A DNA stretch of 64,000 nucleotides from NCBI GenBank assembly GCA_033065855.1, contig JAVXUO010002717.1:186001-250000 (forward strand), written 5' to 3'. Below the pieces are notes generated by a model. That model did not search any database and was not told the DNA's origin. It saw nothing but the letters and a program-made list of their open reading frames with translations. The DNA is from Escallonia rubra. Its lineage: Eukaryota > Streptophyta > Magnoliopsida > Escalloniales > Escalloniaceae. A program made the position numbers and the translations under genes. Below are positions 12,101 through 55,510 of the stretch, in pieces (positions within the stretch are counted from its first letter, which is position 1; the number at the start of each line of letters is the position of its first letter).

Positions 12101-15100
12101 TGAGTTCCAAAGTCCACTATTTATAGGCAAAAGCATGCCTGCGTCATCAGCTGACACGTGTCATCCCCTGGGAGTGACACATCACCAGGGGGGTCCGCAA
12201 ATACCGGTTCTCCGTCGAACTGTCGGTTCCCAAATTTGCACTGCCCTGCCCACACAACATCTCTCTACCTGTCTGAGAAGACTGAACACACCATGACAGC
12301 ATGATCAGAGTAAGCCCGTCGCCCCAGCCACTGGTCCAAGCCCTTACTGAATCCCACAAGGTGTATCAAGAGACGCGTAGAGAACCTGACAGTGGTGAGG
12401 GTTGCCCCTGTAGCCAACTGCCAGGCAGACTAGGCGCGATGCCCTCCAAAGACCTGCTCCCGTCCCGGAGTGACCCGGGGGTCATCGTCCTGGGGGCGCC
12501 GATGATCACCGGTAACGTGAGTGGACATGGTCACAGCTCAGTGCCTAGTGTCATGCAAGTCACCCCAGACGACGATAGCTTTGTGGTAACGAGCCTATCC
12601 CGCTGCGGAGGGTCCTCGTGCCGGAGCACTACGAGCGGAGCCCCCGAAATGAAGACGGCGATAGCTTTGTGGTAACGCGCCTATCCCGCTGCAGAGGGTC
12701 CTCGTGTCGGAGCACTACGAGCGGAGCCCCCCGGAAGGAAAACGGCGATAACTTTGTGGTAACAAGCCTTTCCCGCTGCGGAGGGTTCTCGTGCCGGAGC
12801 ACTGCGAGCGGAGCCCCCCAGAATGTGGCACACTCCGGAGAGTGGGTCGAAGCATGTTCCACTTCCATGGTGTGGGCACATGGTGTGGTGCCCGAAGGCA
12901 TGTAACGTGATTGTGGCGCGTGGGCGTGGTGCCTACAACACGAGATATGATTGTGGTGCATAGCCGCGGCGGCGATAACTGTCGCGGGACATGATTGTGG
13001 CGCATAGGTGCGACGACAGCCGTCGCGGGACAATACCTGGTGCCGGGGCACATGTCATGAAAGTGGCGCACGGGTGTGGCGGAGTGTGGGAGTGCGGTGC
13101 GCGGGCGCCGGCGACAGGGGTCGCAGAGACAGCGCTCGGGCGACGAAGGTCGCGGAGACGGCGCCCGGGCTCGGGCGACAGGAGTCGCGGAGCTGGCGCG
13201 CGGATGCGGGCGACGAATGTCGGGAGATGTCCGGGCGATGGGGGTTGCGGAGATGACGTCCGGACGATGGGCGACAGGGGTCGTGGAGTCGACGCGCGGG
13301 CGTCAGGGGACCTCGGGCGGCAAGCTCCGGGAAGTCGGCGAGCGACGGGCACCGTGAAGCCGGTGCGCGGGCGAAGGTGGACGTCACGGAGACGGCGCCC
13401 GGGCGACGGGAGTCGCGGAGCTGTCGCGCGGATGCGGGCGACGAAGGTCCCGAAGATGTCGTCCGGGCAATGGGGGTCGCGGAGATGACGTCGGGGCGAC
13501 GGGGGTCGTGGAGTCGACACGCGGGCGCCGGGCGGCGAGCTCCGGGAAGTCGACGCGCGACCACGGGTGACGGGTGCCGTGAAGCCGGCGCACGGGCGAC
13601 GGGAGCCGTGAAGCCAGCGCGCGGCCACGGACGACAGGCGCCGTGAAGGATGCATGGTCCCTAGAAGAGAAGTGAAGAAATGGGGTCAACACCTTGAAGG
13701 GGAAGGTGGCCGACCCACTTAAGATGGCCGACCCCCATAAGGTGGCCGACCCCCCCTAAGGTGGAAGGCACGCAAAAGTTGCTTCACAAAGGGAAAATGC
13801 ACGTGACACTATTATGTGTCGCTTTGACCAGCTTGTGAGCGTTGAAAAGTTGACCGTTGAATGTGCCGACGTGTCATGAGAATTGGGACCCCCAGTGGGC
13901 CTATAGGTGTAGCCAAGATAGGTTGGGAACAATATTAAATGTTCAAACATGAAGTTTTAGGTTTTGTTGAAAGGGCTCCAATCATTCTTTAATTTGTAGA
14001 AAGATTAATTTGACTGGGTGTTATGCTTTCGTTTCTCCCACAGTGATAGAATTAGGCCATAACCATCATGTTGCATTCTTCATTTTGTGCTTATTTGTGA
14101 ATTGAGTTTTTGAACATTTATTGTTTGTATTTGCAGTGGATGGTAGAAGAGAGAGAACTCCACGTTATTCACTATACACTTGGCCCCCTTAAGCCATGGG
14201 ATTGGTGGACATCTTGGCTTCTAAAACCTGTTGATGTCTGGCAGGTATTTGCTTTAAACTCTTTTGGAGTTTCTGTTGCTTGTTCGTCTCTGGAAATGGG
14301 AATTTATTAACAAACACAATGTCAATCGTATGATCTTTTATGCTTGCTGATGCTGCAGAATGTTAGGGAACAACTTGAGGAATCTCTTCCTGGAACAGGA
14401 GGGGGCAGAAATCCCAATGATGATCTTATTGTCAAATTTCTTTTCCTGCTTCCCCTTATCACTTTGCTTTTCATTTATTACCGTTATTTCCTTCAGGTTA
14501 GCCTTTTCAAGATATTTCGTTCTTTAAAAATGATCAAATCATTGTTGTTTGAATAGGAACTTATTTTTTATATTTAACAGACACGTTCATTATGCGATCA
14601 TGTCAGACACCTATACTACAAATTCAGATCCGGAGGTGCTCTTGCTTATTCTGCAGTTTCTTCATCCAACATTAATTCTAATCAGCAGGTTATTTTCCTC
14701 TGCTTCCTCAGTAAATTCGACGTGCATGTATACGAGATTTGATTTTTTCTTTTTTTGTATAGTATGTTAAGTTACTAGCTGCTCTAAAAGCTTATACCAA
14801 GACATGCTAATCTGCTCTGAAAGCTTAAGCTGTTGGACAGTGGTTCCAACAACGTGAAACATGGTCAACAGTTCCGTCCTGCATGTGACTTTTAATGCTT
14901 GTAGGTTTGCCCAGGAAGCTTATATGAATGGGTGGCCATCCTCATGCCTCATTCGTTGTAGGCCTTATTTTACATGTGTTTTATTTAAGTTCGTTGTTAT
15001 TGATATACAGTTCCCAAATGGTGCACATTCCAAGGTACCTGTTTTTGTGGGTGGGATATCTGTCTGTGTTTGTTTCATGGCTGCTCTGGTGTCTCTAGTG

Positions 15101-26440: not shown

Positions 26441-26836
26441 TTAAAGAGGCGCGTTTTAAAGCTGTCCATCCATTTTTTTAACTTCCATTCACCAGCTTAG
26501 TTTAAAAAATATCTCCTTTTAGTACTGCAGTTTCAATGGTTTTAAGCAAAACTCTAATTATTATCTCACACTTTTATGGACAATTTATTGAAACACCTCC
26601 TCATGCATTTTCAGTTTTAACTCACTTCCTCAATCTATCAAACAACTTAAACATGGCCACAGCCGGGTATAGACAGTATACGTAAGGTTAGCTACAGCTA
26701 GGCTAATCGATTCTCCAATTGAAGCAGTACTTTTTGAATTAATATCTTCTGCTCTTACCATGAAATCTCTTATGCTACGACCTCTAGTCTATTCTCAAAT
26801 TTGAGTTTTTCCATTGGTGCTTAGTTTTATGGTATC
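26441..26836. other. Non-coding target region of the Tat element
   Basis: AT-rich sequence without ORF or repeat that I can identify, ending in the GTATC target duplication at 26832-26836. Confidence 0.5.
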
Positions 26837-27280
26837 TGATATAGCTAAAAATATTCCTCCAATCTACGGACGACACGTGGCGGTTATGACGCGTAACCCG
26901 TACGGACTCATTACTGATATGGCACTTACCATATCAATCATCGGGCAGTATCCTAAAAAGGCTCTGAGTCTATCAGCTCAGATTGACATAAGATCCTCTA
27001 AGATCTTAACTGGATTCTAATTAGAGTCGGTCAAAGCTCAGTCCTATTAGGACTCCTCCTTCTACCGCTATATAAAGGGGTCATGCCCCTCAGGTAAACC
27101 TAAGCTCACACATATACACATTGTGTCTTTACTGCTTCTTCAGAGTTCTACATCGTTAGCTATCTCTGACTTAAGCATCGGAGCGTTCCCCCGCCGGAAC
27201 CCCACCCGGCGGTCACTCCGTGTTCTCTTTTGCAGGCCTGATTTCTGGTGTGGTTCCCGATCCAGTTTTTAGCTGCAACA
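26837..27280 (+). repeat. 5' LTR of the Tat element (444 bp)
   Basis: TG...CA termini embedded in an imperfect terminal palindrome (TGATATAGCTAAAAA / TTTTTAGCTGCAACA). A TATA box lies at 27069-27075. It differs from the 3' LTR at four sites (T/C, C/G, C/T, C/A). Confidence 0.95.
27069..27075 (+). promoter_or_regulatory. TATA box of the 5' LTR
   Basis: TATATAA within CCGCTATATAAAGGGG. The same box is present in the 3' LTR near 37450. It should drive the genomic RNA from about 30 bases downstream. Confidence 0.7.
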
Positions 27281-27300
27281 GATTGGCGCCATCTGTGGGA
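27281..27300 (+). other. Primer-binding region of the Tat element
   Basis: Directly after the 5' LTR, GATTGGCGCCATCTGTGGGA resembles the TTGGCGCC-type primer sites of plant Tat/Athila-like elements. Which tRNA primes it I cannot decide without comparison. Confidence 0.6.
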
Positions 27301-27397
27301 CCACTACAGGGAACATGGCTAACCACTCTTCTTCCAATGACTCTTCACAGAATCATCATGCGCGAACTAGCGACTCTCATGATCAGCGCTCGACCCT

Positions 27398-30300
27398 TTG
27401 CGTCGTCGTCGCACCAGTTCTTCTGAAAATAATTACGTCAACGTAACATCTGCTACTCCCGAATCAGAAACTAGACCTCGGAGAAACAAATCTCCAACGT
27501 CTACTCTGAAAAACGGTGACCTTCGCCATTGCCTGAACCGTCAGCTATTCAAAACACCACATGATAACCTTACCAAGGAAATCCATGAACTGAAGGATGT
27601 TGTAAACACTCTTCAGCGAAAGCTTGACATGGCAGTGGCTCCACAGTCCACTCATCATTCTCATCTTGACCCCAGCGACCTTCGTCTTCGTCTTACCTCC
27701 AGATCAAGTTACGGCCACAAGTACAGATCAACGGCTGATCCAACTTATGATCCCAGAGAGAAAGGCGGAGAACACATAACCAGGAGTGGATCATGCTATC
27801 GACGAGATCCATCAATCGAAGGTAGTACCAACTCCTCTCCCAGGAACGTTGCAAAAGCTGCAACCCCTCGAAGATCCGTCCACAGAAAGAGGACGCCTGA
27901 GTCTCGTTCCCAAGAACGAGATTCCTGGAAGGTGGTACCAAGATATCGTTCCCCAGAACGATCTCTCCCAAGGGACGAATCTGGATATCCTTTATCCGAC
28001 GCGATTGAGAAAGCTAAGTTACCTCCAAACTTTCGAATGCCTCAGTGTGACCATTACGACGGGACTAGAGATCCAGGAGAACATGTGTATCAATTTGAAA
28101 CCAACATGCTACTCCTCCAAGTTTCAGATGCCGTCATGTGTAGAGCTTTTCCCACTACTCTCAGAAAAGCTGCGCACACATGGTTTAAGTCTCTTCAACC
28201 AAGATCCATCCACTCCTTCAGCCAATTATCGGATCTCTTCCAAAAACACTTTGTAAGTAGTCGCTCCCGAAGGAAGAATTCGGCGAGTTTACTAAACATT
28301 GTGCAAGAGAAAAATGAGTCTTTGGCAGGCTTTGTTGGACGGTTCAACGCAGCGACTCTCGAGATCGATAATCTAGACGAGTCTGTGAAATACACCGCCT
28401 TTCTCCGCGGTCTCCGTCCGACATCCAAGTTTGCCTTCTCCGTGAACAAAAGTCCTCCAGGCAATATGAGAGCCCTACTTGAGAAGGCAAACAAATATAT
28501 TCAAGCTGAAGAATACCTGGAAACTCACAGAGGGCGACATGGAGAAGAGAAGGAGGACAAGAAGAAAAGATCTCGAGAGATAACTCCTCAAGGGGGAAAA
28601 AGATCTAAGCGTGAAGAACGACGTCCGCGGAACCAGTTTGCTTCAGAAAACTGGACGCCCCTCAATTCCAAGCCATCACAGATCCTCCATGAGATCAAAG
28701 ACAACCAATCTCTCCAGTGGCCAGACAAGATGAGATCCCGACCGAATAAAAGAAACAAGGATTTATGGTGTCACTTCCACAAAGATCATGGCCACACAAC
28801 CGATAATTGCGGGACACTTAAAGCAGCAATTAAAGCTCTTATCAAGCGTGGCCAATTGAAAAAGTTCATAGCTCCAAGAGAAGGTCGACAGCAAACACCA
28901 CCGGTAGAAGAAAACAGAGCAGATCGAGAAGAGAATGCGGGTATAATCAACACTATATCTGGGGGTTTAGCCGCAGGAGGCTCATCGGGACAAGCTCGGA
29001 AAGCATACGCCAGAGAAGTGTGCATAACAAGTCACCCCCCAAATAAGAAACAGAAGTCAATACCCGCACCGGTGATAACCTTCTCCGATGAAGATTTAAA
29101 GGAGGTAAAAACCCCTCACGACGATCCGTTAGTCATCACGATAAAGGCAGAAAATTTCGATGTGAAACGTGTCTTGGTCGATAACGGAAGCTCCGCAGAA
29201 GTCTTGTTTTACGACGCGTTCAAGAAGATGAACATACCAACGGACCGTCTCCGAAAGATGGATACACCGTTGTATGGATTTTCCAATCATCCAGTTGCAG
29301 TCGAAGGTATTATTACACTCCCGGTTACACTCGGCACACCTTCGACACAAGCCAACTTCATGCTCGATTTTGTGGTGGTAAAGGTCCCCTCAGCATACAA
29401 CGCAATATTGGGACGACCAGCACTCAATCAGTTTCAAGCTGTAGTGTCAACTTATCACCTCAAAATGAAATTCCCCACGGAGCAAGGGATTGGAGAGGTC
29501 AAGGGCGACCAAACTACAGCTCGCCAGTGCTACGTGACTTCATGCCGATCAAAAAGCAAGGAATCACTCATTATAGAAGACCTTCGGGAAGATACAAAGA
29601 TGCAAAGGGGAGAACCTGTTGAAGACCTTATCAGCATCGAAGTATATCCCGGGGAAGAAAGCAAGACGGTTCGGATAGGTTCAAATCTTAAGGAAAACAC
29701 CAAACTCGAGTTGGTGAACCTGCTAAGAACCTATGTGGACATTTTTGCATGGACAGCTGCAGATATGCCCGGGATTGATCCTGAAGTCATTACCCATAGG
29801 CTGAATGTTGATCCATTCAAAAAGCCTGTCAAGCAGAAGAAGAGGACTTTTGCGCCAGAAAGACAGGTGAAAATTGAAGAAGAAGTAGATAAACTCCTAA
29901 CGGCTGAATTCATTGAAGAGGTCCACTACCCAGATTGGATTGCCAACGTAGTCATGGTTCCTAAATCAGGCGAGAGATGGCGAATATGTATCGATTACAC
30001 GGATCTTAACAAAGCGTGCCCAAAGGACAGCTACCCGTTCCCAAGAATAGACCTTCTTATCGACGCTACTTCGGGCCATGAACTGCTTAGCTTCATGGAT
30101 GCATATTCTGGTTACAACCAGATTATGATGCACACGGATGACGTATCCAAAACTTCATTCATCACAGAGAGAGGATTATACTGTTATAAAGTGATGCCTT
30201 TCGGACTCAAGAACGCCGGAGCAACATACCAGCGGCTGGTGAACATGATTTTTCGAGACTTGATCGGGACAAATATGGAAGTTTATGTTGACGACATGCT

Positions 30301-31522
30301 CGTCAAAAGCATAAAATCCGAATTCCATGTCAAGGACTTGAAAGAAACTTTTGACATCCTTCGAAAGTATAGAATGAAGTTGAATCCACTCAAGTGCGCT
30401 TTCGGGGTTTCATCAGGAAAGTTCTTGGGGTTTATAGTTTCTCAACGGGGAATCGAAGCAAACCCAGAGAAAATCAAGGCTATTCAGAGCATGGCGTCCC
30501 CAAAAACAATCAAACAAGTACAAGAGTTGACGGGAAGGGTCGCAGCTTTGGGAAGGTTCATGGCCCGATCAGCTGAACGGTGTTTGCCATTCTTCAAAGC
30601 CATCAGAAAGGCAAAAAGTTTCACTTGGACAGATGAGTGCCAGGAGTCATTCGAAGAACTAAAAACCTATTTAAGTTCTCCACCCCTACTTTCAAAACCA
30701 CTTCCAGGTGAAGATTTATTCTTATACCTCTCAGTCACTGACGTTGCAGTCAGTGCTGTTCTAATCAGAGAGGAAGATGGAGTTCAGAAACCCATCTACT
30801 ACATTAGCAAAGTGTTGCAAGATGTAGAAACCAGATACCCGAAGATCGACAAGATCGCATTGACACTTGTCATATCAGCCAGGCGTCTGCGACCATACTT
30901 CCAATCTCATACCATTATCGTACTAACGGACCAACCACTTAGAAAAGTTTTGCTGAGTCCGGAGGCCTCGGGAAGACTAGTCAATTGGTCCGTAGAATTG
31001 GGAGAATTCGATATCCAATACAAGCCTCGCACCGCAATCAAAGCTCAAGCCTTAGCGGACTTCATCGTAGAATGTACCGTACCTGAGGACCCGCCTCAAT
31101 TAGTAATTTCGGAAGTTCAAGATCCTTGGAATCTCTATGTAGATGGATCATCAGCCATTGGCGGCAGCGGAGCCGAGATTATTCTTATTAGTCCAGAAGG
31201 ATTTACTATCGAATACGCACTTCGCTTTGGATTTCAAGCCTCAAATAACGAAGCTGAATATGAGGCCCTTCTTGCGGGGATAAGGTTAGCACACGCCTTA
31301 AAGGTGGACTCCTTATCAGTTCACAGTGATTCCCAACTGGTGGTCAATCACGTCTTGGGAGATTATGAGGCCAGAGATGAAAGAATGGCTCAATATCTCG
31401 ACTTAGTTAAAACAACAGCGGTGAAGTTTCAAAACTTCACCATTCGCCAGATTCCAAGGGATCAGAATGCTCAGGCAGATGCATTATCAAGGCTCGCTTC
31501 CATTGAAGAAATTGATGTCTGA
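27398..31522 (+). CDS. Gag-protease-reverse transcriptase-dual RNase H polyprotein (Tat lineage)
   Basis: The open frame of 1,374 codons has, by residue: capsid-like gag about 208-350 (RMPQCDHYDGTRDPGEHVY), a variant zinc knuckle near 456 (CHFHKDHGHTTDNC), protease near 590 (VLVDNGSSAEV), reverse transcriptase about 830-1050 with RICIDYTDLNKACPKD and the catalytic YVDDM near 964, RNase H about 1107-1222, and an archaeal-type RNase H about 1246-1370 (LYVDGSSAIGGSG, NNEAEYEALLAGI, HSDSQLV). The annotated start codon is TTG. A likelier gag start is ATG at 27315 (MANHSSSNDS), but that frame must shift by one base near 27395 to join this one, so the N-terminus is probably damaged. The frame ends at a TGA (31520-31522) directly followed by in-frame integrase sequence. 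Confidence 0.93.
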   Translation: MRRRRTSSSENNYVNVTSATPESETRPRRNKSPTSTLKNGDLRHCLNRQLFKTPHDNLTKEIHELKDVVNTLQRKLDMAVAPQSTHHSHLDPSDLRLRLTSRSSYGHKYRSTADPTYDPREKGGEHITRSGSCYRRDPSIEGSTNSSPRNVAKAATPRRSVHRKRTPESRSQERDSWKVVPRYRSPERSLPRDESGYPLSDAIEKAKLPPNFRMPQCDHYDGTRDPGEHVYQFETNMLLLQVSDAVMCRAFPTTLRKAAHTWFKSLQPRSIHSFSQLSDLFQKHFVSSRSRRKNSASLLNIVQEKNESLAGFVGRFNAATLEIDNLDESVKYTAFLRGLRPTSKFAFSVNKSPPGNMRALLEKANKYIQAEEYLETHRGRHGEEKEDKKKRSREITPQGGKRSKREERRPRNQFASENWTPLNSKPSQILHEIKDNQSLQWPDKMRSRPNKRNKDLWCHFHKDHGHTTDNCGTLKAAIKALIKRGQLKKFIAPREGRQQTPPVEENRADREENAGIINTISGGLAAGGSSGQARKAYAREVCITSHPPNKKQKSIPAPVITFSDEDLKEVKTPHDDPLVITIKAENFDVKRVLVDNGSSAEVLFYDAFKKMNIPTDRLRKMDTPLYGFSNHPVAVEGIITLPVTLGTPSTQANFMLDFVVVKVPSAYNAILGRPALNQFQAVVSTYHLKMKFPTEQGIGEVKGDQTTARQCYVTSCRSKSKESLIIEDLREDTKMQRGEPVEDLISIEVYPGEESKTVRIGSNLKENTKLELVNLLRTYVDIFAWTAADMPGIDPEVITHRLNVDPFKKPVKQKKRTFAPERQVKIEEEVDKLLTAEFIEEVHYPDWIANVVMVPKSGERWRICIDYTDLNKACPKDSYPFPRIDLLIDATSGHELLSFMDAYSGYNQIMMHTDDVSKTSFITERGLYCYKVMPFGLKNAGATYQRLVNMIFRDLIGTNMEVYVDDMLVKSIKSEFHVKDLKETFDILRKYRMKLNPLKCAFGVSSGKFLGFIVSQRGIEANPEKIKAIQSMASPKTIKQVQELTGRVAALGRFMARSAERCLPFFKAIRKAKSFTWTDECQESFEELKTYLSSPPLLSKPLPGEDLFLYLSVTDVAVSAVLIREEDGVQKPIYYISKVLQDVETRYPKIDKIALTLVISARRLRPYFQSHTIIVLTDQPLRKVLLSPEASGRLVNWSVELGEFDIQYKPRTAIKAQALADFIVECTVPEDPPQLVISEVQDPWNLYVDGSSAIGGSGAEIILISPEGFTIEYALRFGFQASNNEAEYEALLAGIRLAHALKVDSLSVHSDSQLVVNHVLGDYEARDERMAQYLDLVKTTAVKFQNFTIRQIPRDQNAQADALSRLASIEEIDV

Positions 31523-32839
31523 CGACCGGTCTACCTTGAGTTCCTCAAAGACCGCAGTATCAGTTCTCAAGCTAACATTCAAGTAATAGATCAAGAACCT
31601 TGCTGGATGGACACAATCATGAAATACTTGTCCACAGGCGAATTACCAAGTACAAGACGCGAGGCCAGAAATCTTCGTATCAAAGCTGCGCGGTACGCCA
31701 TAGTGGAAGGTACTTTATACAAGAAATCGTTCAGCCTTCCATACCTCAGATGTCTGCGTCCATCAGAATCCCTCTACGCATTACAAGAAGTTCATGAAGG
31801 GATATGTGGCCAACATCTTGGAGGAAGAACATTAGCACAGAAAATCCTAAGACAAGGATATTACTGGCATACGATGCAGAAGGATGCGATCGACTTCACA
31901 CGAAGATGCGATAGATGTCAGAGGTTCGCACCGGTCTCTCACACACCGGTTGCTCCTTTAACTGCGATTGTTTCCCCCATCCCTTTTGCTATATGGGGAA
32001 TGGATCTCCTGGGACCTTTTCCCATGGCGTCCGGACAACGACGATTTGTGATTGTAGCGATAGACTACTTCACCAAGTGGACCGAAGCAGAATCTCTGGC
32101 TACCATTACTTCAACCAAATGTGAGGACTTCTTTTGGAAAAATGTTGTCTGCCGTTTTGGAGTGCCAAGAGCTTTGGTGGTTGATAACGGAAAACAGTTT
32201 GACAACAGCAATTTCTGAAGCTTTTATGCGAATCTTTCAATTGATTTGAGATTCACTTCTGTAGCTCATCCGCAATCCAATGGTCAAACTGAAAACATGA
32301 ATCGAAACATCTTGCAAGGGTTGAAGAAAAAGCTAGATGATGCTAAAGGAGCATGGGTAGACGAACTCCCCAAAGTGTTATGGGCTTATCGAACAACTCC
32401 ATACTCAGTCACCGGAGAAACACCTTTCTTACTCTGCTACGGAACGGAAGCAATGTTACCAGTCGAGATAGGAGTTCCAACAATACGGGCCTTACACTTC
32501 AACGAATTAAGTAACGAAGATGGACTCCGAGCAAATCTTGATTTGGTAGATGAAGCTCGAATTCAAGCCCATGCACGATCTGTCGTCATAAAACAACGAG
32601 TGGCACGATATTACAATCGGAGAGTCCGATCCAAACAGTTCAGCGACGGAGATTTGGTCCTTCGCAAACTAGAAGTTTCGGATCCAAAAGCAGCGACGGG
32701 AAAGTTATCTCCAAACTGGGAAGGACCCTACCGTGTTATAAAGGTGCTCAAACCGGGCGCCTATGCACTAGGGAAACTTTCTGGAGAACCCATCCCTCGT
32801 ACTTGGAATGCTGAGAACTTGTGCAGATATTACCAGTAG
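31523..32839 (+). pseudogene. Integrase part of the Tat polyprotein, separated by TGA stops
   Basis: This continues in the same frame as the upstream polyprotein. It has the zinc-binding HHCC region (EVHEGICGQHLGG then CDRCQRFA), the catalytic core (WGMDLLGPFP, IDYFTKWTEAE, ALVVDNGKQFD, SNGQTENMN) and a C-terminal SH3-like part (LSPNWEGPYRVIKVLKPGAY). One TGA at 31520-31522 cuts it from RNase H and another at 32216-32218 cuts the catalytic core between the second Asp and the Glu. Both stops would be CGA before a single C-to-T change. Without them, gag-pol would be one frame of about 1,814 codons. As written, no active integrase can be made. Confidence 0.9.
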
Positions 32840-33043
32840 TGTCTCGGCACGAGCTGAAACACTTCCTTTTTTGGGGGATAAGGGGCACAGACCTTATCAG
32901 AACTCCAACATCTTAAAAATAATCTTTAGCAGATTGTTTCGAATAAATGGGTTGTTAAGCAATCCAATGTAAACTTTATTTTCTACTCTATTAATAAAGT
33001 TATTCCTTCTCAGTATTGTTGTAATAGAAGCTTAGCCAAAACA

Positions 33044-33480
33044 TTCTGTCCGAACAGAGTGACTGCCGAACACTCTGCCCGAACAGAGTGACTGCCGAAC
33101 ACTCTGCCCGAACAGAGTGAAAAGCATAGCCGAAACATTCTGTCCGAACAGAGTGACTGCCGAACACTCTGCCCGAACAGAGTGACTGCCGATAACTCTG
33201 CCCGAACAGAGTGACAAGCATAGCCAAAACATTCTGTCCGAACAGAGTGACTGCCGAACACTCTGCCCGAACAGAGTGACAAGCATAGCCAAAACATTCT
33301 GTCCGAACAGAATGACGGCCGAACACTCTGCCCGAACAGAGTGACAAGCTTAGCCAAAACATTCTGACCGAACAGAATGACGGCCGAGTACTTTGCTCGA
33401 ACAGAGTGAGAGATTTAAACTAAAACATTCTGTTTAAAACAGAGTGATGGCCGAGCACTTTGCCCGAACAGAGTGTATAA
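33044..33480. repeat. Palindrome-cored tandem array A, downstream of pol
   Basis: Repeats of about 32-36 bp alternate between CCGAACAGAGTGACTGCCGA-type and AGCATAGCCAAAACATTCTG-type units. The recurrent core CACTCTGCCCGAACAGAGTG is a perfect 7-bp inverted repeat around CCCGAA. Units decay toward the right end. The same core builds array B at 36110-37095, on the other side of the antisense gene. ORFs over it on the minus strand are repeat translations. Confidence 0.9.
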
Positions 33481-33824
33481 CTCTTGAGTTCTGTAAAAAT
33501 ACAAGAGAAGGCCAAACGGATTAGCTACAGTTCTAAATCCGTGAAGAAACAAAAGTTAATGGGGGCATCGTCACTCCACTAAAGCTTTTGCTTCTTCGAA
33601 TTATAGGCCGAGCGAGGGTGCTCGACTTCTTTGCCAACTCTTTAAGTGACGAATAGAGAGTTAAGCCAAAGTAAAAATCAATTAATACTGTGTGAAAGGC
33701 AAAGATAAACCGCGAGAAACACATAGTAAAATTGAAACGTCGTGAAAGATAAAGAGTTTTACAATAAGCCCTTAATCGGGCATCAGAATTCTGTCTACAA
33801 AGAGCTAAAGGCCTAGATACAAAT

Positions 33825-35910
33825 CTAAGGCTCGGGGGCATCTCCAGAAGGGCCCTCCCCTGGAAGACGAGAAGCTGCAACATCTCCTGCCTCTGGAGGC
33901 ATAACAGTCTCCCCAGATGGTGACCCAACCGCAGGCAGAATAAAGTCACCCATGGGGATGTCAGGAAAGCGCTCGCCTATCATGTCCTTGGCCTTCGCGA
34001 AACCCAGCTCATAAATCTCAAGTCCATCGTCGGTCCGCTTCTTCAGCCACTCATCACCGGCGTTCCCATCCAGAAAGTCACGGATGCCTTGGTCACGAGC
34101 TTTGGCCACCTCTTCGGTTGCCTTCCTCTTTACCCGCTCCAGCCTCTTCTCCAGAGCCGCAATCTTCTCAAGGTGATCTGCCTCTTGCTTGCTCAGCTCT
34201 TCAACACGATGAGTAGCCTCTTGAGCTTCCTTAACAGCTTCCCTTGCCTGTTGACCCTCTGCTGCTGCAACCTCCCTCGCCATCTCAAAACGAGAAAACA
34301 TCTCAGACCCGCTGGCGTACATCTAGAATAAAGATCGAAAGCATCAGCCAAATGGAAATTGAAAGCACGTTAGAAACCAAGTTGGGAACAGAGATGTTAC
34401 CGTATACACGGCCTGGGCAAAGGAACGGGCAAAAGTCTCGTGAGTCTGAGTCTGGAAAACTTCCTTGTCTCGAGGAAGAATTCCATGACGAAGATGCTGC
34501 TCGGAGATCTGGCTATCTGGCATCCCAAGATCATCGCGCCTAAGTGTCCACATCGGCCGAAAGATGGGATCGTCTTCGATGGACACTTTATCAAGGATTC
34601 GTGGAGAGCGTTCTGCAGACGTAACTCTGGTCTTCTTAGGAGCAGGGGGCAGCTCCACACTTGGCTGCTTTTCCTTGCGCTTCCCCTTAGCTTTCTGAAG
34701 AACACCAAGAAACCCTGCCTGTGGTGACTTTCCACTCCCGCTTGCCATTTCTGTGACAAAGAAAGAAATCAATACGGTAATAAACATAGAAAACAAATGA
34801 AGATTAATGATTTCTATGAAGCACACCTAGCGGGACAGTCTCAGCGGATGACACGCTAGGAACAACGATAGGAGGAAGAGGATTAATCGGAAGACCAGCC
34901 GGAGTAGGCTTGGGAGGAATAATCTTCGCCCATTCCAATTGCTCCTCAGACAAAGGCTCATCTATACAAAGACCGCCTCGAAGCTTAATGTGGCTAAGTA
35001 TATGCTTGGTCTGAGTATTGGGAGTTGGCTTTTCGGGATTTTCGAAATCCTTGCAGAAAGGATTCCAGACTTTATCAAATGGGAGCTCTCCCTTATCCAG
35101 GCGCCCAACAAAGAAATATCTGGAATGCCAGCCCTTATTCGACTTCGGACCTCCCTTCAGAAGCCGTTGCCTGCTATGAATGTAATACCATCCTGGGCAG
35201 TTGGCAACTCCTTTGACGAAACAGATTTCGAAGAATACTCTCATAAAATCTGTTGCATATGGTTTGTAGCCTGAAGTTTGGACCAAGTATATAAGGCCAG
35301 CAAGCTTCCTCCAACCATTTGGAACAAGCTGCCCGGGAGCCATGCGATAATGCTCGAAGAAGCGAAGAGCAAACGGGTGAAGAGGAAGCCTATATCCAGA
35401 CTTCACCTGCTCTTCGTAGACACCCATTTCAAACTTTGTGCCATAGTTAGCTGGTTCTTGTAAACCAGGAAGACGTGCGTACCAGCCTTCAGGAAGTGGA
35501 TATTCCCGAATTAAGTCCTGCAAATCTTCGGCAGACATCTTGCTTGACTTCTCGTCAGCAGTGTACCAGGGTTTGGGATTAGCTTTATCGTCAGCTTGAT
35601 CTTTGACATCACCTAAGGCATTTTTTCTAGACAAAGACTGCGATGGTTGAGAAGTTGAAGGATGGAATGGTTGGGAAATTGAAAGTTGTGGTTGTTGTGG
35701 ATTTGAAGTTCCAACTTCACTTCCAGAAGTTGGAACTCGTTCCGAACTCGAAGACGAACTACTTATATCAAAATCCTCTTCGGGCGATGTAGCAGATGTT
35801 GAGGTTTCGGACATATTTGCTACCGAATCTAGGAAAACTTTCAAAAAACTAGAATGCTGAACTGAAAGAGGAAAAGGAGAAGACTTACTTGCAGAGTAGT
35901 GTGCTTCCAA
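33825..35910 (-). CDS. Antisense gene of the Tat element, three exons, plant-transposon domain and coiled coil
   Basis: The minus-strand exons are 35910-34827, 34750-34401 and 34322-33825, with introns of 76 and 78 bp bounded by GT...AG. They join in frame to about 643 residues; MSETSTSATS at about 35813 is an alternative start. The N-terminal third is Ser-rich. Then comes a region (EYPLPEGWYARLPG, YRLPLHPFALRFFEHYRMAPGQ, PNGWRKLAGLIYLV) like the putative plant transposon / gypsy-type transposase domain annotated in many plant genomes. The second exon is basic (KAKGKRKEKQ, PAPKKTR). The third is a probable coiled coil (EAVKEAQEATHRVEELSKQE onward) with an acidic tail ending GDAPEP. It runs opposite to gag-pol and lies between two related tandem arrays. 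Antisense ORFs in this position are known in Tat elements; their function is unclear. The frame is intact although pol is not. Confidence 0.82.
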
Positions 35911-36109
35911 AATTTTCGAGTGAAGAAAAATGAAGTGAAAGTCCTCATTTTATAGAGGAACCCCAAGTAACCGTTCCTGGGGAAGCGTAACGGTTCATTT
36001 ACCTCACACGTGTCACATGATGAAGAGGAGAGAAACTTGAAAATTTTCAATTCCCGCTCGAAAACATCCATGGAGCGGGAGACACGTGGAGGAACCCAAT
36101 GCAGTGGTC

Positions 36110-37095
36110 GAGCAAAATATTGCCCGAGCAGAATCGTGTCCGAACACTCTGCCAGAACAGAGTGAACGTGGCCGAACAGAATCCTGCCCGAGCAGAATCG
36201 AGTCCGAACACTCTGCCCGAACAGAGTGAACGTGGCCGAACAGAATCCTGCCCTAGCAAAATCGTGTCCGAACACTCTGCCCGAACAGAGTGAACGTGGC
36301 CGAACAGAAGTTTGTCCGAGCAGACTGCCCGAACAGAATGCTCGTTCGAACAGAAGTTTGTCCGAGCAGACTGCCCGAACAGAATCGTGTCCGAACACTC
36401 TGCCCGAACAGAGTGAACGTGTCCGAACAGAATATTGCCCGAGCAGAATCGTGTTCGAACACTCTGCCCGAACAGAGTGAACGTAGCCGAACAGAATCCT
36501 GCCCGAGCAGAATCGTGTCCGAACACTCTGCCCGAACAGAGTGAACGTGGCCGAGCAAAAAATTGCCCGAGTAGAATCGTGTCCGAACACTCTGCCCGAA
36601 CAGAGTGAACGTGGCCGAACAGAAGTTTGTCCGAGCAGAGTGCCCGAACAGAATGCTCGTCCGAACAGAATGCTCGTCAGAACAGATGCTCGTCCGAACA
36701 GAATGCTTCCCGAACAGAAGTTTGTCCGAGCAGACTGCCCGAACAGAATGCTCGTCCGAACAGAAGTTTGTCCGAGCAGACTGCCCGAACAGAATGCTCG
36801 TCCGAACAGATGCTCGTCCGAACAGAATGCTCGTCTGAACAGAAGTTAGTTCGAGCAGATTGCCCGAACAGAATGCTCGTCCGAACAGAAGTTTGTCCGA
36901 GCAGACTGCCCGAACAGAATGCTCGTCCGAACAGATGCTCGTCCGAACAGAATGCTGTCCGAACAGAATCGCATTCAAACAGAAGTTTGTCCGAGCAGGT
37001 TGCCCGAACAGAATGCTCGTCCGAACAGAATGCTGTCCGAACAGATGCTCGTCCGAACAGAATCGTGTCCGAGCAGAAACTCGTCCGAGCAGAAC
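36110..37095. repeat. Palindrome-cored tandem array B, upstream of the antisense gene
   Basis: The left half (about 36120-36640) has ~60-65-bp units combining CACTCTGCCCGAACAGAGTG, AACGTGGCCGAACAGAAT and CCTGCCCGAGCAGAATCGTG. The right half (about 36640-37095) is built from shorter TGCTCGTCCGAACAGA and AAGTTTGTCCGAGCAGACTG units. Nearly stop-free frames up to about 297 codons on both strands are produced by the repeat itself. The core is shared with array A. The array sits just 5' of the antisense gene, where its promoter is expected. Confidence 0.92.
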
Positions 37096-37201
37096 ACTTT
37101 GAAATTTTGAAATGTTGACCAACAAATTTAATTCTGTTTTTGGCATATTTCGCTATCATCAGTGGAAAAAGTGTGCTTCCACCCGCTTCATTAACGCTGG
37201 T

Positions 37202-37213
37202 AAAAGCAGGGGG
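37202..37213 (+). other. Polypurine tract of the Tat element
   Basis: AAAAGCAGGGGG, four bases before the 3' LTR, in the expected place for plus-strand priming. A similar purine tract (GGGGGATAAGGGG, about 32872-32885) follows the pol stop and could be an internal one. Confidence 0.6.
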
Positions 37214-37217
37214 CATA

Positions 37218-37661
37218 TGATATAGCTAAAAATATCCCTCCAATCTACGGACGACACGTGGCGGTTATGACGCGTAACCCGTACGGACTCATTACTGATA
37301 TGGCACTTACCATATCAATCATCGGGCAGTATCCTAAAAAGGCTCTGAGTCTATCAGCTCAGATTGACATAAGATCGTCTAAGATCTTAACTGGATTCTA
37401 ATTAGAGTTGGTCAAAGCTCAGTCCTATTAGGACTCCTCCTTCTACCGCTATATAAAGGGGTCATGCCCCTCAGGTAAACCTAAGCTCACACATATACAC
37501 ATTGTGTCTTTACTGCTTCTTCAGAGTTCTACATCGTTAGCTATCTCTGACTTAAGCATCGGAGCGTTCCCCCGCCGGAACCCCACCCGGCGGTCACTCC
37601 GTGTTCTCTTTTGCAGGCCTGATTTCTGGTGTGGTTCCCGATCCAGTTTTTAGCTGAAACA
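37218..37661 (+). repeat. 3' LTR of the Tat element (444 bp)
   Basis: Same length as the 5' LTR with four substitutions and no indels, followed by the GTATC target duplication at 37662-37666. Confidence 0.95.
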
Positions 37662-38339
37662 GTATCCGTTGTTCAATACAGAGAACCTTATTGACTTAAT
37701 TTTTAAGGTAAATTCTTTATACCCTTTAGTATGAGATTGCTAGCCAAGAGAAGAAGCAAATGCAATGGTTGCAGTTAGGTTTAATATCATTAGAGTAGTC
37801 TTTCTCTTGGTTCGCGATTTAAATTAGAGTTGCAAGTTATTGGATCTTGAGGTTAGCCGATTAATGTGATTGTGCAATTTTCTACATGGTTTTATTTTCT
37901 GAGTCTTGATTCCTTATGGATGAAACGAAGAATTGATGTGGAATCTTTGCTATGAGTGCCGCAAATCAACGACATGGAAGCAGTCTTTGGCGGGTAGTTG
38001 GCGTAGCCGGTGCCTGATGTCGAAGAGGAAGAGTTTTTTTAGGACAATTTTAGTATATCACAATAGATATTATGATGTCCTAACTTTTCTTGACGGTTCT
38101 TAACGAGAGGGGGCGTTTCTAAAATTACTACAAACTACAGGGTGCCGAATGTAACTTCAATAGATAAGTGGAAGCCTCAGGAATGTCGAGTGTAATTATT
38201 CATCCAAAATGGTATTTAGCTAAGCATCATTATATTCTTAATTTATGAAAATGCTAAACAAACATGTTGATACATGTTATCTCTTCTTATAAAATATGAA
38301 ATAAAAGTGAGTAGTGCGATCTGTTATCATGCTTGCACG

Positions 38340-38560
38340 TGGAGAGACAGACCAAGTCAGAAATAAATTGAGTGCAAACAGCACTATAATAAAGGGGAAC
38401 GAGATATGCAAGCGGGAATAATCGACCCAAGACCTTGCTAAACCCAAGACCTTGCTAAACCAGAGCTTTGATACTATGTTAAGTTACCATCTGCTCTAAA
38501 AGTTTAAGTTGTTATAGAATGATCTCAACAATGTTATCATACTTATCAAGTGCCGTAAGA
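38340..38560 (-). mobile_element. SINE-like (tRNA-derived) insert, copy 1
   Basis: On the minus strand, ATAGTATCAAAGCTCTGG (A-box-like) is followed by CTTGGGTCGATTATTCCCGC, a damaged B-box-like block, in the spacing seen in tRNA-derived plant SINEs. A short internal duplication (CCAAGACCTTGCTAAAC) is present. Ends are unclear; it could instead be a fragment near an LTR element primer site. Confidence 0.35.
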
Positions 38561-39409
38561 ACCTCCATAGTGTGAGCACCTTTATAGTGTCTATGTTGGT
38601 AGGTGGATGAGTGAAAACTGTACACGCATTTATATATTTTTTAAACTGTACATGCATTTATATTTCGGTAAAAATATAAATGTGCGTACAGTTTTCATGT
38701 ATTATAAACTCACTATATAAAAATAAAAATTTATTAAGAAGCATTATTTAACTATGGTATTTAGTCTCATTCAAGATTTTGTGTATCTTATCAACTCAAC
38801 AAAGTTTTAGTTGTGAATTTCGTTAAAAAAGTGTGAATAGTAATTATTAATCTATTGAATACTAATTATTACGGCGTCGACTCTACTCGAGCAAACGGGT
38901 GACACAGTACCCTTGCAAAGAATTAAATCGCGACAAAATTCAATATTTAGCAACAACGACATGGAAGCAATCTTTGATATGAGTGCCGCAAATCTTTGAA
39001 ATGAGTGCTGCAATTCAACGACATGGAAGCAGTCTTTGGCGGGTAGTTGGCGTAGCCGGTGCCTGATGTTGAAGAGGAAGAGGTTTTTAGGGCAATTTTA
39101 GTATACCACAATAGATATTATGATGTCCTAACTTTTCTTGACGGTTCCTAACGAGAGGGGGCGTTTCTAAAACTACTACAAACTATAGGGTGCCGAATGT
39201 AATTTCAAAACTTAAGTGTAGCCGTGTGTGATAAGTGGAAGCCTCAGGAATGTCGAGTGTAATTATTCATCCAAAATGGTATTTAGCTAAGCATCATTAT
39301 ATTCTTAATTATGAAAATGTTAAACAAACATGTTGATACATGTTATCTCTTCTTATAAAATATGAAATAAAAGTGAGTAGTACGATCACGAAACATATGC
39401 AGTGTTGTT

Positions 39410-39680
39410 AAGTTACCATCTGCTCTAAAAGTTTAAGTTGTTAGAGAATGGACCCAAGGGTCCAACAATGTTATCATGCTTGCACGTGGAGAGACAGATC
39501 AAGTCAGAAATAAACTGAGTACAAATAACACTATAATAAAGGGGAACGAGATATGCAAGCGGGAAGAATCGAACCCAAGACCTTGCTAAACCAGAGCTCT
39601 GATACCATATTAATTAAGTTACCATTGTTCTAAAAGTTTAAGTTGTTAGAGAATGAGTCTAACAATGTTATCATACTTAA
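39410..39680 (-). mobile_element. SINE-like (tRNA-derived) insert, copy 2
   Basis: On the minus strand, ATGGTATCAGAGCTCTGG is followed by TTGGGTTCGATTCTTCCCGC, resembling pol III A and B boxes (B consensus GGTTCGANNCC). The block is flanked by near-repeats of AAGTTACCAT...CTCTAAAAGTTTAAGTTG (about 39411-39446 and 39604-39645). It is better preserved than copy 1. It does not fold as a complete tRNA gene. Confidence 0.4.
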
Positions 39681-40320
39681 AAGTGCCGTAAGAACCTCCA
39701 TAGTGTGAGCACCTTTATAGTGTCTATGTTGGTAGGTGGATGCGTGAAAACTGTACACGCATTTATATTTCGGTAAAAATATAAATGTGTGTACAGTTTT
39801 CATGTATTATAAACTCACAATATATAAATAAAAATTTATTAAGAAGCATTATATAACTATGGTATTTAGTCTCATTCAAGATTTCGTGTATCTTATCAAC
39901 TCAACAAAGTTTTAGTTGTGAATTTCGTAAAAAAGGTGTGAATAGTAATTATTAATATGTTGAATACTAATTATTACGGTGTCCACTCTACTTGAGCTAA
40001 CGGGTGACACAGTACCCTTGCAAAGAATTAAATCGCGACAAAATTCTATATTTAGCAACAAATAATTTTTGAAATGGCTGGATTGGATAGTATAGGTAAG
40101 TAGGCGAATCTATGAGATCTATAACAAATGACAAGAGGAAGGATACAAGAAAGATAATCTAAGTACTTCCTGGTAAGTGACATCCCTTGAAATTGTGTCG
40201 ATTTAAATCCACTTTTATGTCCTTTTCTAGTCCATCAAATCCCTTTCATAGAAGTTATACCTTCTGTTGGCATACATGAAACTTAAACAATCACTCTATA
40301 AACAGTTGTATTAGGCTGAT

Positions 40321-49725: not shown

Positions 49726-51849
49726 TGGTATCAGCGTCAGGTTTGAGATCCTGTAGACGCTTAGAAATTAGCTTAAGAAAGGAAAGTTTTATAGCTTCCA
49801 AGCTTGTTAGGACTATTCATGAATGGTTATTTTTATAAGCCCAAGACTTATATGTTTGTGTGATGTTGATCAAGATAAGTATCCGTAGCGGAATGCATTG
49901 TGGCAGAAGAGGCCGAGAAGAAAGAGCAAAAGGTCCAAAATCCAATGCTATTCAGGTTGCAGATAATACTGCAATCTTAAAGCAATTCACGAGTTTGCGG
50001 CCAAGTTAATTTGATAAAGCTACGGATCCTATGGTTGCAGAGACTTGGGTTAGTGAGTTGGATAAGATATTTAAGGTGATGGGGTGATCAGACAAACAGA
50101 AAGTGAAGTTACTAGTCTTTCAGTTGACTGGGCAGGCGGACCAACTGTTGAAGATGACGTCAAAGATGATAACAGCAGAAGAGAAAGCTAATCTCACATG
50201 TCAAGAATTTCCCGGCGCACGAACTTGAAGGAGGCTATGGAGAGCTATTTAATGAGGATCACACAGCATACAAATGAGACTATCACAGAGTATAAGGAGC
50301 AATTTGCGAAACTTTTAGGATTTGCCTTAACACCATGTATGGGGCAGACGTCATATTGTTCAAGACGAGAAACATCGTGCACCTAAGTTCCGGGATCGGC
50401 TGCGGTTTGAGATAAGGTGACATATGGCTATCTGGGATAACCTTACCTATGCATAGGTGGTTGATGGAGCGCATCATCTGGAGCGAATTCATGAAGAGCA
50501 GCTACACATCTAGCAGTACAAGAGAAAAAAGAGGGACCGTAATGAATTGAACTTTGGAAATCGAAGAAAGCCATCATCAGATGCCAAGAAAAGACCAATA
50601 GGTGGACCAGGGGAAAGGCAGTAGATTCAAAGCGCTATGAGAGAAATTGCGTCACTTATAGAAAATATCACGGGAACTAGCCCTGCTATAAGGACACGTG
50701 ATCATGTTATAATTATGGAGCAATGGGACACATGGCCAGGAACTGCACAAAGCCTCCACGTGATCCAAATTGGAATAAGAATGAAGCTGATAAGCAGAGA
50801 GCACCAGAAGGACATGCCAGCGTTTTTGCCATGACAACTCTTGAGGCTGGATCATCAAATGATGTGGTAATTGGTACTTTTAAAGTTTGTCAAAAAGACA
50901 TTTATGTTACTAGATCCTGGTGCCACACATTCATTTTTTTAGTAACTTTTTGTAAGAATTTGACAATTAGACCTAGAAACTTGGAACCATAACTTTATGT
51001 TGATACCCCTATTACAAACTCTGTAGTAGCCTCTAGAGTATATAATTATTGCCCCATTGGTATTGATGATAGAGAATTGACGGTGGACTTAGTTCTGCTA
51101 GATATGAAAGACTTCGATGTGATTTTGGGTATGGACAAGTTATCTTCCAATCATGCCAAGATAGATTATTTTAGCAAAGAGGTTTTATTTGTGATTCCGT
51201 ATCAGCCTAAATTTAAGATTTAGGGAGCCAGAGTCAATACTCTACCTTACTTGATTTCGTCTATGCGCCCCAATCGTCTTTTAAGGAAGGGTTGTAGTGG
51301 TTCTTTATCTCACATTCATGGCACTTGTCTAGCAGAGGTCAGACTAGAGGATATCCTTATTGTTTGTGATTTTTCGGACGTGTTTCCAGAAGACTTGCCT
51401 GGTGTTCTCCCTGGTAGGGAGATTGAGTTTATTGTTGACTTGATCCCTGGTGCAACACCTATTTCCAAAGCACCTTACAAAATGGCTCCTACAGAACTCA
51501 GGAAACTAAATGAGCAATTCCAAGAACTTCTAGACAAAGGTATGATTTGTCCTCGTGTGTCTCCATGGAATGAGCCAGTATTATTTGTTAAGAAAAAGGA
51601 TAGGAGCATGCGTTTATGCATTGACTATAGGAAGCTTAATCGCGCAACAGTCTCAAATAAATATCCCTTGCCTAGAATCGACGACTTGTTTGATCAACTT
51701 CAGGGCTCAAGGTGCTTCTTGAAAATAGACCTTCGTTCTGGGTACTGTTAACTTAAGGTTAAGAATGATGATGTACCAAAGACTGCTTTTAGGACACGAT
51801 ATGGCCATTACGAGTTTTTAGTTATGCCTTTTGGTTTATTGAATATGTC
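49726..51849 (+). pseudogene. Del/Tekay-like Ty3/Gypsy gag-pol, decayed and truncated in reverse transcriptase
   Basis: After the primer site come gag (DPMVAETWVSELDKIFKVMG, KEAMESYLMRITQHTNETI), a zinc knuckle (CYNYGAMGHMARNC), protease (LLDPGATHSFF), and reverse transcriptase at 51251-51849 ([36 protein letters not shown]). Stops and frameshifts occur throughout, for example TGA after KVMG, two stops after the protease DPGATHSFF, and TAA in SGYC*LKV. Reverse transcriptase stops abruptly after MPFGLLNM, before the YxDD motif, where unrelated LTR sequence begins at 51850. The family fits chromoviral Del/Tekay elements; no chromodomain is retained. Confidence 0.85.
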
Positions 51850-54202: not shown

Positions 54203-55510
54203 GTTGTAATTGGTACTTATGTATAGAGCGTTAAGCTGCAATGTACAGGGGGTAACACATGGGAGGTAGCGGCTATAAGGGGGTAACACATGGGAGGTAG
54301 CGGGTTATAACCTTCATTTAACGGCAAGTAATGGTTGTACAGTGACAAAAACTAAGTAAGGTAAAAACGTGATATCGCTAAATAAAAGAGGTGTTTTCTT
54401 TGCTACAATCAAGGTGTCGCCAAAAAATTACTATATCAATACTTAGGACCTATATGAGACCCATTTCCATTTTCAGTTATCATATTCATTCTCGAAAATT
54501 CAGGCTTTGTTATGTTTGGTACATGCTTTCTTTCGGAAACACCTAAATGCAAATGTTAACTCCCATGTATGAGCGCTTGTATATTGTTTGCCTTATCGAT
54601 AAGTTTCTCCATAAACAATGAAAATCATTTTATAAAACAATGAAAAACATTTAGTCACCGCCACAATTACTACCACCCTACTACACCACCACCAACGCCA
54701 CTTGCCGTCACCACCCACCCATAGCTACCTCGTTTCATTCAACCACCACTCATCCATCGCCGCCGCCGCCATCTTATCCCATCCTCGTCACCATGCACTG
54801 ATGTAGGGTTGGGGCACTACATATCTAAAGCCCCCAATGGGGCGGAACTATTGAATTGAATCACTCAATATTTTTTGCATCACCACTACTGTCACTTACC
54901 ACCGACTCATCCCAATTTTGCCACTGACATCGGCATCGCAGAAAATAGTTGCCAGACCCAAATTTAGATGAATCATGTTGCGAACACCTACCAAATGACA
55001 TTATCAACAAAGTATGCCATGTAAACACCTTTCGTTTACCACCAAGCGCGTAGGTCAGCATTATCAACAAAGTATGCCATGTAAACACCTTTCGTTTGAA
55101 ATACTTGCCAAAAATATAAACACTAGAATGAGTAACAGAGATCACATGAAATATAAACACTAGAATGAGTAACAGAGATCAAATCCCATACACGCCCCAA
55201 GTGTTAAAAAGTATTACCGGAGCAGGTACAAGAGATTCATCCTGGAATTACTTGGCATCTGTCCTAGTTTGAGTGCTGCACTGCGCATTCCACACAATGC
55301 AAGAGCCAAACGTTCTGTATTTTAATCAGACAAGAACAGGGAAACAGCAGACAGCTTGTCTTGGGAGATTTGCAAGTCTTTTGAAACTTAGCTGATGAAT
55401 ACAGCAGGGCGATGCCTGGCGTTTGTCTCTAAAAGGCGATTACTTTTCGGGGTTTGCAAGCACCTCAGAGAAGCAAGAGACACAAATGAGGTGCCTCGTC
55501 AAATGTTTCG
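54203..55510. other. 5' flank of the PPR gene with several short tandem duplications
   Basis: GGGGGTAACACATGGGAGGTAGCGG is duplicated at about 54248 and 54279. ATTATCAACAAAGTATGCCA... is duplicated 62 bp apart at about 54999 and 55061, and AATATAAACACTAGAATGAG... at about 55113 and 55151. A (CCGCCG/CCACCA)-rich patch lies near 54655-54770. No gene is seen. No clear TATA box is found for the PPR gene. Confidence 0.55.

Follow-up and report, generated by a model that had tools for sequence, protein, structure and literature searches.

A three-exon antisense TRP28 gene and tandem arrays with a shared half-site in a Retand-type retrotransposon of Escallonia rubra: candidate cis-acting sites for an element-encoded protein

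Anatomy and lineage of the element

We analyzed a window of 64,000 nucleotides from Escallonia rubra (assembly GCA_033065855.1, contig JAVXUO010002717.1, positions 186,001 to 250,000), with the 566-Mb genome (3222 contigs) as the search space for family counts. The window contains a long terminal repeat (LTR) retrotransposon at 26837-37661, flanked on both sides by the target-site duplication GTATC, and between pol and the 3' LTR this element carries a minus-strand gene with a TRP28 domain, bracketed by two tandem arrays, A and B (Table 1). The duplication and the LTRs confirm a single insertion.

The Pfam domains of the element follow the order expected for Retand elements: gag, RVT_1, RT_RNaseH, RVT_3 (1254-1371), which we take to be the archaeal-type RNase H (aRH) of the element, and then integrase. 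The location of a second RNase H between the first one and integrase is the position described for this lineage (PMC6317226). Besides, the antisense PF04195 open reading frame (ORF) lies between pol and the 3' LTR (40.3 bits against a cutoff of 26.2), and the sizes of the LTR (444 bp), the internal region (9937 bp), and the pol-3' LTR region (4378 bp) all fall inside the published Retand ranges of 315-1194, 7380-12869, and 2933-6566 bp, respectively (PMC11963269). Judged by domain order, antisense ORF, and sizes, the element is a Retand-type Ty3/gypsy retrotransposon of the Tat clade. As a preliminary description of this locus had stated, pol has stops: its frames end at in-frame stops at 31522 and 32218.

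Table 1. Features of the Retand-type element (window coordinates)
Feature	Position	Strand	Remarks
Target-site duplication GTATC	26832..26836 (5' copy), 37662-37666 (3' copy)		Flanks the element on both sides
5' LTR	26837..27280	+	444 bp, TG..CA
gag-pol frame	27383..32839	+	gag, reverse transcriptase, RNase H, second RNase H-like domain, integrase
Array A	33040..33475		~65-bp units, palindrome CACTCTG-CCCGAA-CAGAGTG, five exact copies
Spacer from array A to gene 3' end	33481..33824		Conserved among copies; probable 3' untranslated region
Antisense exon 3	33825..34322	-	Coiled-coil-like by eye; no Pfam family above cutoff
Intron 2	34323..34400	-	78 bp, GT..AG
Antisense exon 2	34401..34750	-	Part of in-frame join
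Intron 1	34751..34826	-	76 bp, GT..AG
Antisense exon 1	34827..35814	-	Transposase_28/TRP28 domain, PF04195, E 3.8e-10
TATAAA	35949..35954	-	Likely antisense promoter, from motif
G-box CACGTG	36007..36012	-	Upstream of exon 1
Second G-box CACGTG	36083..36088	-	Array B starts ~20 bp farther
Array B	36110..37094		Palindrome units, then mostly direct copies of half-site CCGARCAGA
Probable polypurine tract	37197..37217	+	Purine-rich stretch ending in AAAAGCAGGGGGCATA, before 3' LTR
3' LTR	37218..37661	+	444 bp, 4 differences from 5' LTR

The antisense gene has three exons and is kept by selection

The three minus-strand exons join in frame into a stop-free reading frame of 611 amino acids, and the unspliced antisense frame does not remain open. 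This bears out the intact three-exon gene of the preliminary description, and the TATAAA box at 35954-35949 fits the upstream end of about 35910 given there. We compared the gene with family copies L009-L028, which, the window itself aside, had the best 20 exon 1 matches among 40 scored from 405 candidates, a choice biased to gene-bearing copies. In the gene alignment of 20 rows (the window and 19 of the 20 fetched copies, the interrupted L017 being left out), the first intron kept its donor in 19 rows and its acceptor in all 20, and the second intron kept them in 18 and 17, respectively. Against the window, the distant copies L013-L028 are 69-84% identical in the introns and 80-88% in the exons; in the nearest four copies (L009-L012), the introns are not clearly more diverged than the exons. 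Within this set, the gene is free of stops in the window only, the other copies having 1-43 in-frame stops. A further locus, L056, whose gag is 99% identical to that of the window, has an intact gene of 616 amino acids with all four splice dinucleotides present.

Pairwise ratios of nonsynonymous to synonymous substitution rates (dN/dS) were calculated for those pairs in which dS exceeded 0.05 (188 of 190). The median was 0.197 for the whole gene and 0.227, 0.134, and 0.202 for exons 1, 2, and 3, respectively, whereas the same alignment columns read in the two shifted frames gave 1.25 and 1.15. Between the window and L056, the value was 0.10. Thus, the frame is maintained by selection, and a chance open frame, which the preliminary description had left as an alternative, is ruled out by the shifted frames. 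Integrase gave 0.153 (12 pol-bearing copies, 66 pairs), and the gag-protease (gag-PR) region of copies lacking reverse transcriptase (RT) gave 0.192 (19 pairs), which indicates that the antisense gene is kept about as strictly as both. By its reading frame, splice sites, and substitution pattern, it is a genuine three-exon coding gene, predicted to be spliced and expressed.

Searches for distant relatives of the protein added little: a PDB sequence search returned only two matches, both meaningless (E above 0.6), and in viral contigs, 84 stretches fitted a pattern and none was confirmed as a relative.

The arrays of the family share one half-site

The exact 20-mer CACTCTGCCCGAACAGAGTG, a perfect 7-bp inverted repeat with a 6-nt spacer, occurs five times in array A and six times in array B, and nowhere else on the plus strand of the window. 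All six copies of array B lie within 36209-36607. The earlier view that both arrays are built on one palindromic core thus holds for array A and for this part of array B, whereas the remainder of array B is for the most part made up of direct CCGARCAGA copies; on the plus strand, array B holds 48 half-sites CGARYAGA and no inverted one. Half-site density is 13.3 per kb in array A and 32.5 in array B; the LTR has 0.34 and the gene 0.03. The family palindrome has short arms (TCTG..CAGA and flanks), and the half-site within it has nearly always the same orientation.

In the whole genome, the core with a GAA or GAG spacer occurs 2316 times, against none for a reversed control pattern, a frequency that chance does not account for. 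Across the family, the spacer is mostly GAA in array A and mostly GAG in array B; the commonest array B palindrome has GAG in 18 of the 20 fetched copies, the exceptions being L023 and L024 (the latter without array B). A GAA spacer in array B is found in the window and also in L056, so that the GAA-type array B of the window is not unique.

Array A half-sites were present in all 20 assessable rows (L017 was left out of this count), and array B half-sites were present in 20 of 21, L024 having lost array B. Besides, we hand-selected six loci (L050-L055) among the first 100 listed places of the core for clusters that looked unpaired or too close, so that the share of gene-less loci among them is not a rate. 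Among these, L053 has the whole arrangement, and L054 has exon 1 and array B only. Altogether, not one of 24 family loci bearing exon 1 (the window, L009-L028, L053, L054, and L056, the last counted from the array B side only, since it was read short of array A) was without any array. The case of a gene without arrays, named beforehand as evidence against a connection, was therefore not encountered; the stronger expectation that both arrays always accompany the gene stood only as at least one array in 24 of 24, with L024 lacking array B and L054 lacking array A.

A diverged TRP28 clade carries the half-site upstream of its gene

A genome search with PF04195 gave 941 first-look candidates, of which 150 were scored, and 21 of these loci (L029-L049) were fetched for variety in frame length and for domain insertions or deletions, not for arrays. 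They form one clade with 63-98% mutual identity and 28-35% protein identity to window exon 1. Each of the 21 loci has, upstream of its antisense gene, a tandem array in which CGARYAGA is enriched (4-39 copies against 0.05-0.5 expected). In this clade, a forward half-site comes exactly 6 or 7 bp after the inverse one in 231 of 281 cases. A counterpart of array A was missing from all eight loci that were read through to pol (0-1 half-sites). The suggestion that the two arrays and the gene make a self-contained module is therefore too strong, since the diverged clade has a counterpart of array B alone.

The units of the two clades were also compared directly, using 14 of 135 family units against one unit from each of the 21 loci (294 pairs). 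The local score had a median of 17 against 13 for shuffled units and a maximum of 32 against 26, and a stretch common to units of both clades is CTCTG(C)CCGAGCAGA. By BLASTN, neither the gene-to-array B stretch nor the pol-side spacer of the window matched any of the 21 loci, and the window LTR gave short matches in 10 of them. Some reading frames of this clade are continuous up to 653 amino acids, longer than window exon 1.

Gene-less and deleted elements, and probable reassortment of element parts

Three hand-picked loci (L050, L051, and L052) have both arrays, the spacer, and an LTR that is 91-97% identical to that of the window, and they have other sequence in the place of the antisense exons, of which only a 47-bp remnant in L051 was found. 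BLASTN with the antisense upstream stretch gave no match in these three loci. L055 has the same gene-less middle, its read ending before array B. The gene-replacing part of L050 and L052 contains a longer palindrome, CCAACATTCTG-TCCGAG-CAGAATGTTGG. The replacement sequence itself (2071-3342 in L050 and 1559-2888 in L052) holds scattered half-sites, and its origin was not found.

For the gene-less middle, a first look at the genome gave 156 candidates, of which 40 were scored, at 91-100%. We also compared the 38 other best matches to the 5' LTR of the window (95-98%), taken from 1785 candidates. Thirty of these 38 make 15 pairs, 14 of which span 5.2-6.6 kb and one 11.1 kb, and 7 of the 15 pairs enclose a scored gene-less middle. 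A short family, apparently young, thus has the LTR type of the window, as judged from these pairs.

A shared deletion of RT, RNase H, and most of integrase was found in 5 of the 20 family copies, with its edges at 29563/32513 in L010, L012, L022, and L026 and at 29553/32521 in L016. Despite the deletion, these five keep gag-PR, the arrays, and the antisense gene. L013 and L014 have a different, larger common deletion and keep the antisense gene as well. L050 and L055 have gag-PR and the same integrase relic; L051 and L052 were read short of gag. The RT-deleted copies, L050, and L055 accordingly have the make-up of nonautonomous gag-bearing LTR elements, in which gag is kept and RT and most of integrase are absent.

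The seven RT-deleted copies are spread over the antisense tree, with 6 changes where shuffling gives 5.9 on average; 5' parts and the 3' module thus seem to reassort. We therefore dropped the antisense dN/dS of this group (median 0.198, 21 pairs) as separate evidence. Furthermore, the window gag is 97-99% identical to that of 29 of the 39 other scored copies, its antisense gene is at most 94% identical to that of any fetched copy, and its LTRs, among the best matches of the 1785 candidates, are nearest to those of the short elements. The window element is probably a mosaic, and this apparent exchange of 5' half, antisense gene, and LTRs among copies further weakens the notion of a self-contained module.

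The likely antisense promoter is separate from the arrays

Of the 21 family copies aligned in the upstream stretch, 18 have TATAAA there on one strand or the other, and 20 have CACGTG. Within 450 bp of the frame, a TATA-like box occurs in 14 and a G-box-like site in 15 of the 21 diverged loci; the distance between the two is exactly 62 bp in nine diverged loci and 44-45 bp in three, and it is 58 bp in the window. From these motifs, the stretch between the gene and array B is likely the promoter of the antisense gene, apart from the arrays.

Possible role of the arrays

Of the four roles considered for the arrays in the preliminary description (promoter, insulator, terminator, or binding sites), candidate binding sites appear to be the best supported, on indirect evidence, since the half-site is common to both clades and the arrays are kept after loss of the gene. 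An array in every exon 1-bearing locus, together with arrays in gene-less elements, is the pattern of a cis site and a trans factor. We propose, with a probability of roughly 40%, that the arrays may be cis sites bound by the TRP28 protein, acting in self-activation or in anti-silencing similar to that of the VANC proteins. The antisense gene, probably transcribed from its own TATA/G-box promoter, would yield the spliced 611-amino-acid protein, and the arrays would be cis-acting binding arrays on the conserved half-site CCGARYAGA, which the diverged clade has in inverted pairs and the family of the window in direct copies or shorter palindromes. The likeliest trans factor would be the antisense protein itself, working via the arrays on its own promoter and the neighboring LTR, and the same factor may also serve partner elements that have arrays and no gene. 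As an outcome, copies would be kept transcribed, through autoregulation or anti-silencing.

A bolder version seems doubtful to us: that TRP28, perhaps as a coiled-coil dimer, binds CCGARYAGA and lifts the silencing of its own element, and that short gene-less elements with arrays, gag, and matching LTRs exploit it. If it were true, this sequence-specific self-recognition would be the equivalent of VANC in an LTR retrotransposon, and autonomous and parasitic partners would coexist in a single genome. If TRP28 does bind the arrays, large plant retrotransposon families would own a DNA-recognition system, which would also explain their kept 3' tandem arrays. The shared half-site is a concrete candidate target for TRP28, and the gene-less array-bearing elements are a natural cis/trans experiment.

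Several observations weigh against binding of the arrays by TRP28. TRP28 is predicted to be DNA binding (PMC11963269); our structure prediction of exon 1 from 16 aligned sequences gave no usable fold, DNA binding or other, with a predicted local distance difference test score (pLDDT) of 37. The half-site CGARYAGA was named after inspection of both clades, and since the 21 diverged loci are one clade, only two deep lineages are compared. The unit comparison is moderate, 20% of the 294 cross-clade pairs scoring above the 99th percentile of the shuffles, and by BLASTN, array B of the window matches one diverged locus and array A none. In addition, the inverse half-site TCTRYTCG is rare in the family of the window (0.38 per kb in array A and 0.75 in array B), which makes its palindromes shorter than the inverted pairs of the diverged clade. 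The palindrome arms are no more conserved than the spacer. Covariation of the arms is weak in array A, with a complementarity of 471 against a maximum of 469 when right arms were redealt; it is larger in array B (926 against 781), where the excess rests on few unit classes, and we rejected it as proof of selection on the palindrome. Finally, the presence of arrays was read in L050-L052, not in the seven short elements with window-like LTRs, and gene-less elements might have had no pressure to lose arrays.

The arrays could instead be neutral by-products of reverse transcription, arising by illegitimate recombination and strand transfer beside a selected gene, with the motif reflecting common ancestry of a seed repeat; such an origin has been proposed for the hypervariable 3' regions of Tat elements. 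Their copy number and unit length vary, arrays of this kind are described as hypervariable and of unknown function (PMC11963269; PMC7004042), and the behavior of the palindrome arms and of covariation in array A accords with such an origin. Nevertheless, the half-site persists across clades whose antisense proteins are about one-third identical and between which the gene-array stretch gives no BLASTN match, and arrays persist in every one of the 24 exon 1-bearing loci and in the three gene-less elements read through. We regard neutrality as rather unlikely on this account.

It is still less likely that the arrays are enhancer-like sites of a host DNA-binding protein driving the antisense promoter, and perhaps the 3' LTR, with the antisense protein otherwise employed, e.g., in nuclear import or accessory replication. 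The position of array B directly upstream of the conserved TATA/G-box stretch accords with this, as does the antisense gene of maize Grande, which is reported to have its own promoter and a nuclear product (PMC7264820). However, L050-L052 keep their arrays with no match to that upstream stretch, and array A lies at the 3' end of the gene.

Least likely, and very improbable, is that the palindromes act in RNA, as tandem hairpins in genomic or antisense RNA for packaging, stability, or small-RNA effects. When 11 array windows of 200 nt were folded, 8 of them exceeded their shuffles by at least 3 standard deviations on both strands, but inverted repeats give hairpins automatically, and the strand clues conflict, since by energy the minus (antisense) strand is the more stable one in all 11 windows, and by z-score in 9 of them, whereas diverged units show 49 left-right G-T pairs against 4 A-C pairs, an excess that would pair in the plus strand and probably comes from homogenized units of related loci. 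Besides, much of array B in the window is direct half-sites and no full palindromes, and by their coordinates the arrays flank the gene from outside, so that the antisense transcript need not include them.

Comparison with known systems

Antisense PF04195 ORFs were already known in the lineage, in keeping with the earlier remark that Tat elements can carry antisense ORFs: in a Retand survey, antisense TRP28 ORFs occur in all but two of 63 clusters, arrays occur in 32, and the gene is present in 97% of recently active clusters (PMC11963269). Retand arrays most often adjoin pol or the 3' LTR, have highly variable sequence, and are reported to be of unknown function (Vicient 2025, PMC11963269). 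The surveyed elements thus share with ours the long pol-3' LTR region, the antisense PF04195 ORF, and arrays near pol or the 3' LTR, and since antisense TRP28 ORFs and tandem arrays are published hallmarks of Retand, the anatomy of the window is not new. In the part of that survey covered here, we found neither a half-site common to different arrays nor palindromes, an intron structure, or array-bearing elements that lack the gene. Our literature search, in which most subscription papers were outside the scope, likewise found no link between arrays and the TRP28 protein and no description of a shared half-site. Apparently new are the half-site common to two clades, the array in all examined exon 1-bearing loci, and the gene-less array-bearing elements. 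The anatomy of the element is ordinary for its lineage; the shared half-site and the gene-less elements raise it to a testable proposal.

Our working model, with no claim of membership, is VANC of the Arabidopsis VANDAL transposons. VANC proteins bind to short motifs repeated in tandem within the elements that encode them, and methylation is lost as a result (PMC5735166; PMC10398659); VANDAL arrays evolve together. As there, an element-encoded protein is found here with short-motif arrays in the noncoding DNA of its own element (13.3 and 32.5 half-sites per kb against 0.03 in the gene). Unlike VANDAL elements, which are DNA transposons in which binding and demethylation were demonstrated, the present arrangement is known from sequence alone, and the element is an LTR retrotransposon, not a Mu-like DNA transposon. 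A Pfam scan of three antisense ORFs (E 0.001) found PF04195 only, no VANC sequence being compared directly. A sunflower study presents VANC as a compelling example of a motif and its protein and leaves open whether the same applies to extra ORFs of certain LTR elements (PMC12844716).

Antisense ORFs have been reviewed, including one with its own promoter and nuclear product (PMC7264820). That gene, gene23 of maize Grande, is likewise an antisense accessory gene between pol and the 3' LTR; flanking palindromic arrays are not mentioned in the accessible part of the review. Tandem arrays downstream of pol are known as 3' subrepeats of Ogre and other Tat-clade elements, where they are treated as raw material of satellites (PMC7004042), whereas here the motif recurs in two deep clades and is linked with an antisense gene. 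The antisense genes HBZ and APH-2 of deltaretroviruses also have nuclear regulatory products (PMC11963269), a likeness of position and logic only, for which no homology was sought.

Other features of the window

Starting about 280 bp past the 3' LTR, a tandem duplication of ~1.05-1.15 kb occupies 37942-40047, with stretches 88-100% identical. A G+C-rich minisatellite region with units of 86 bp and 29 bp lies at 12567-13764. By eye, 51224-51751 is a piece of another Ty3/gypsy polymerase frame, and 55490-57460 holds an open frame of 656 amino acids with pentatricopeptide-like repeats, probably a host gene.

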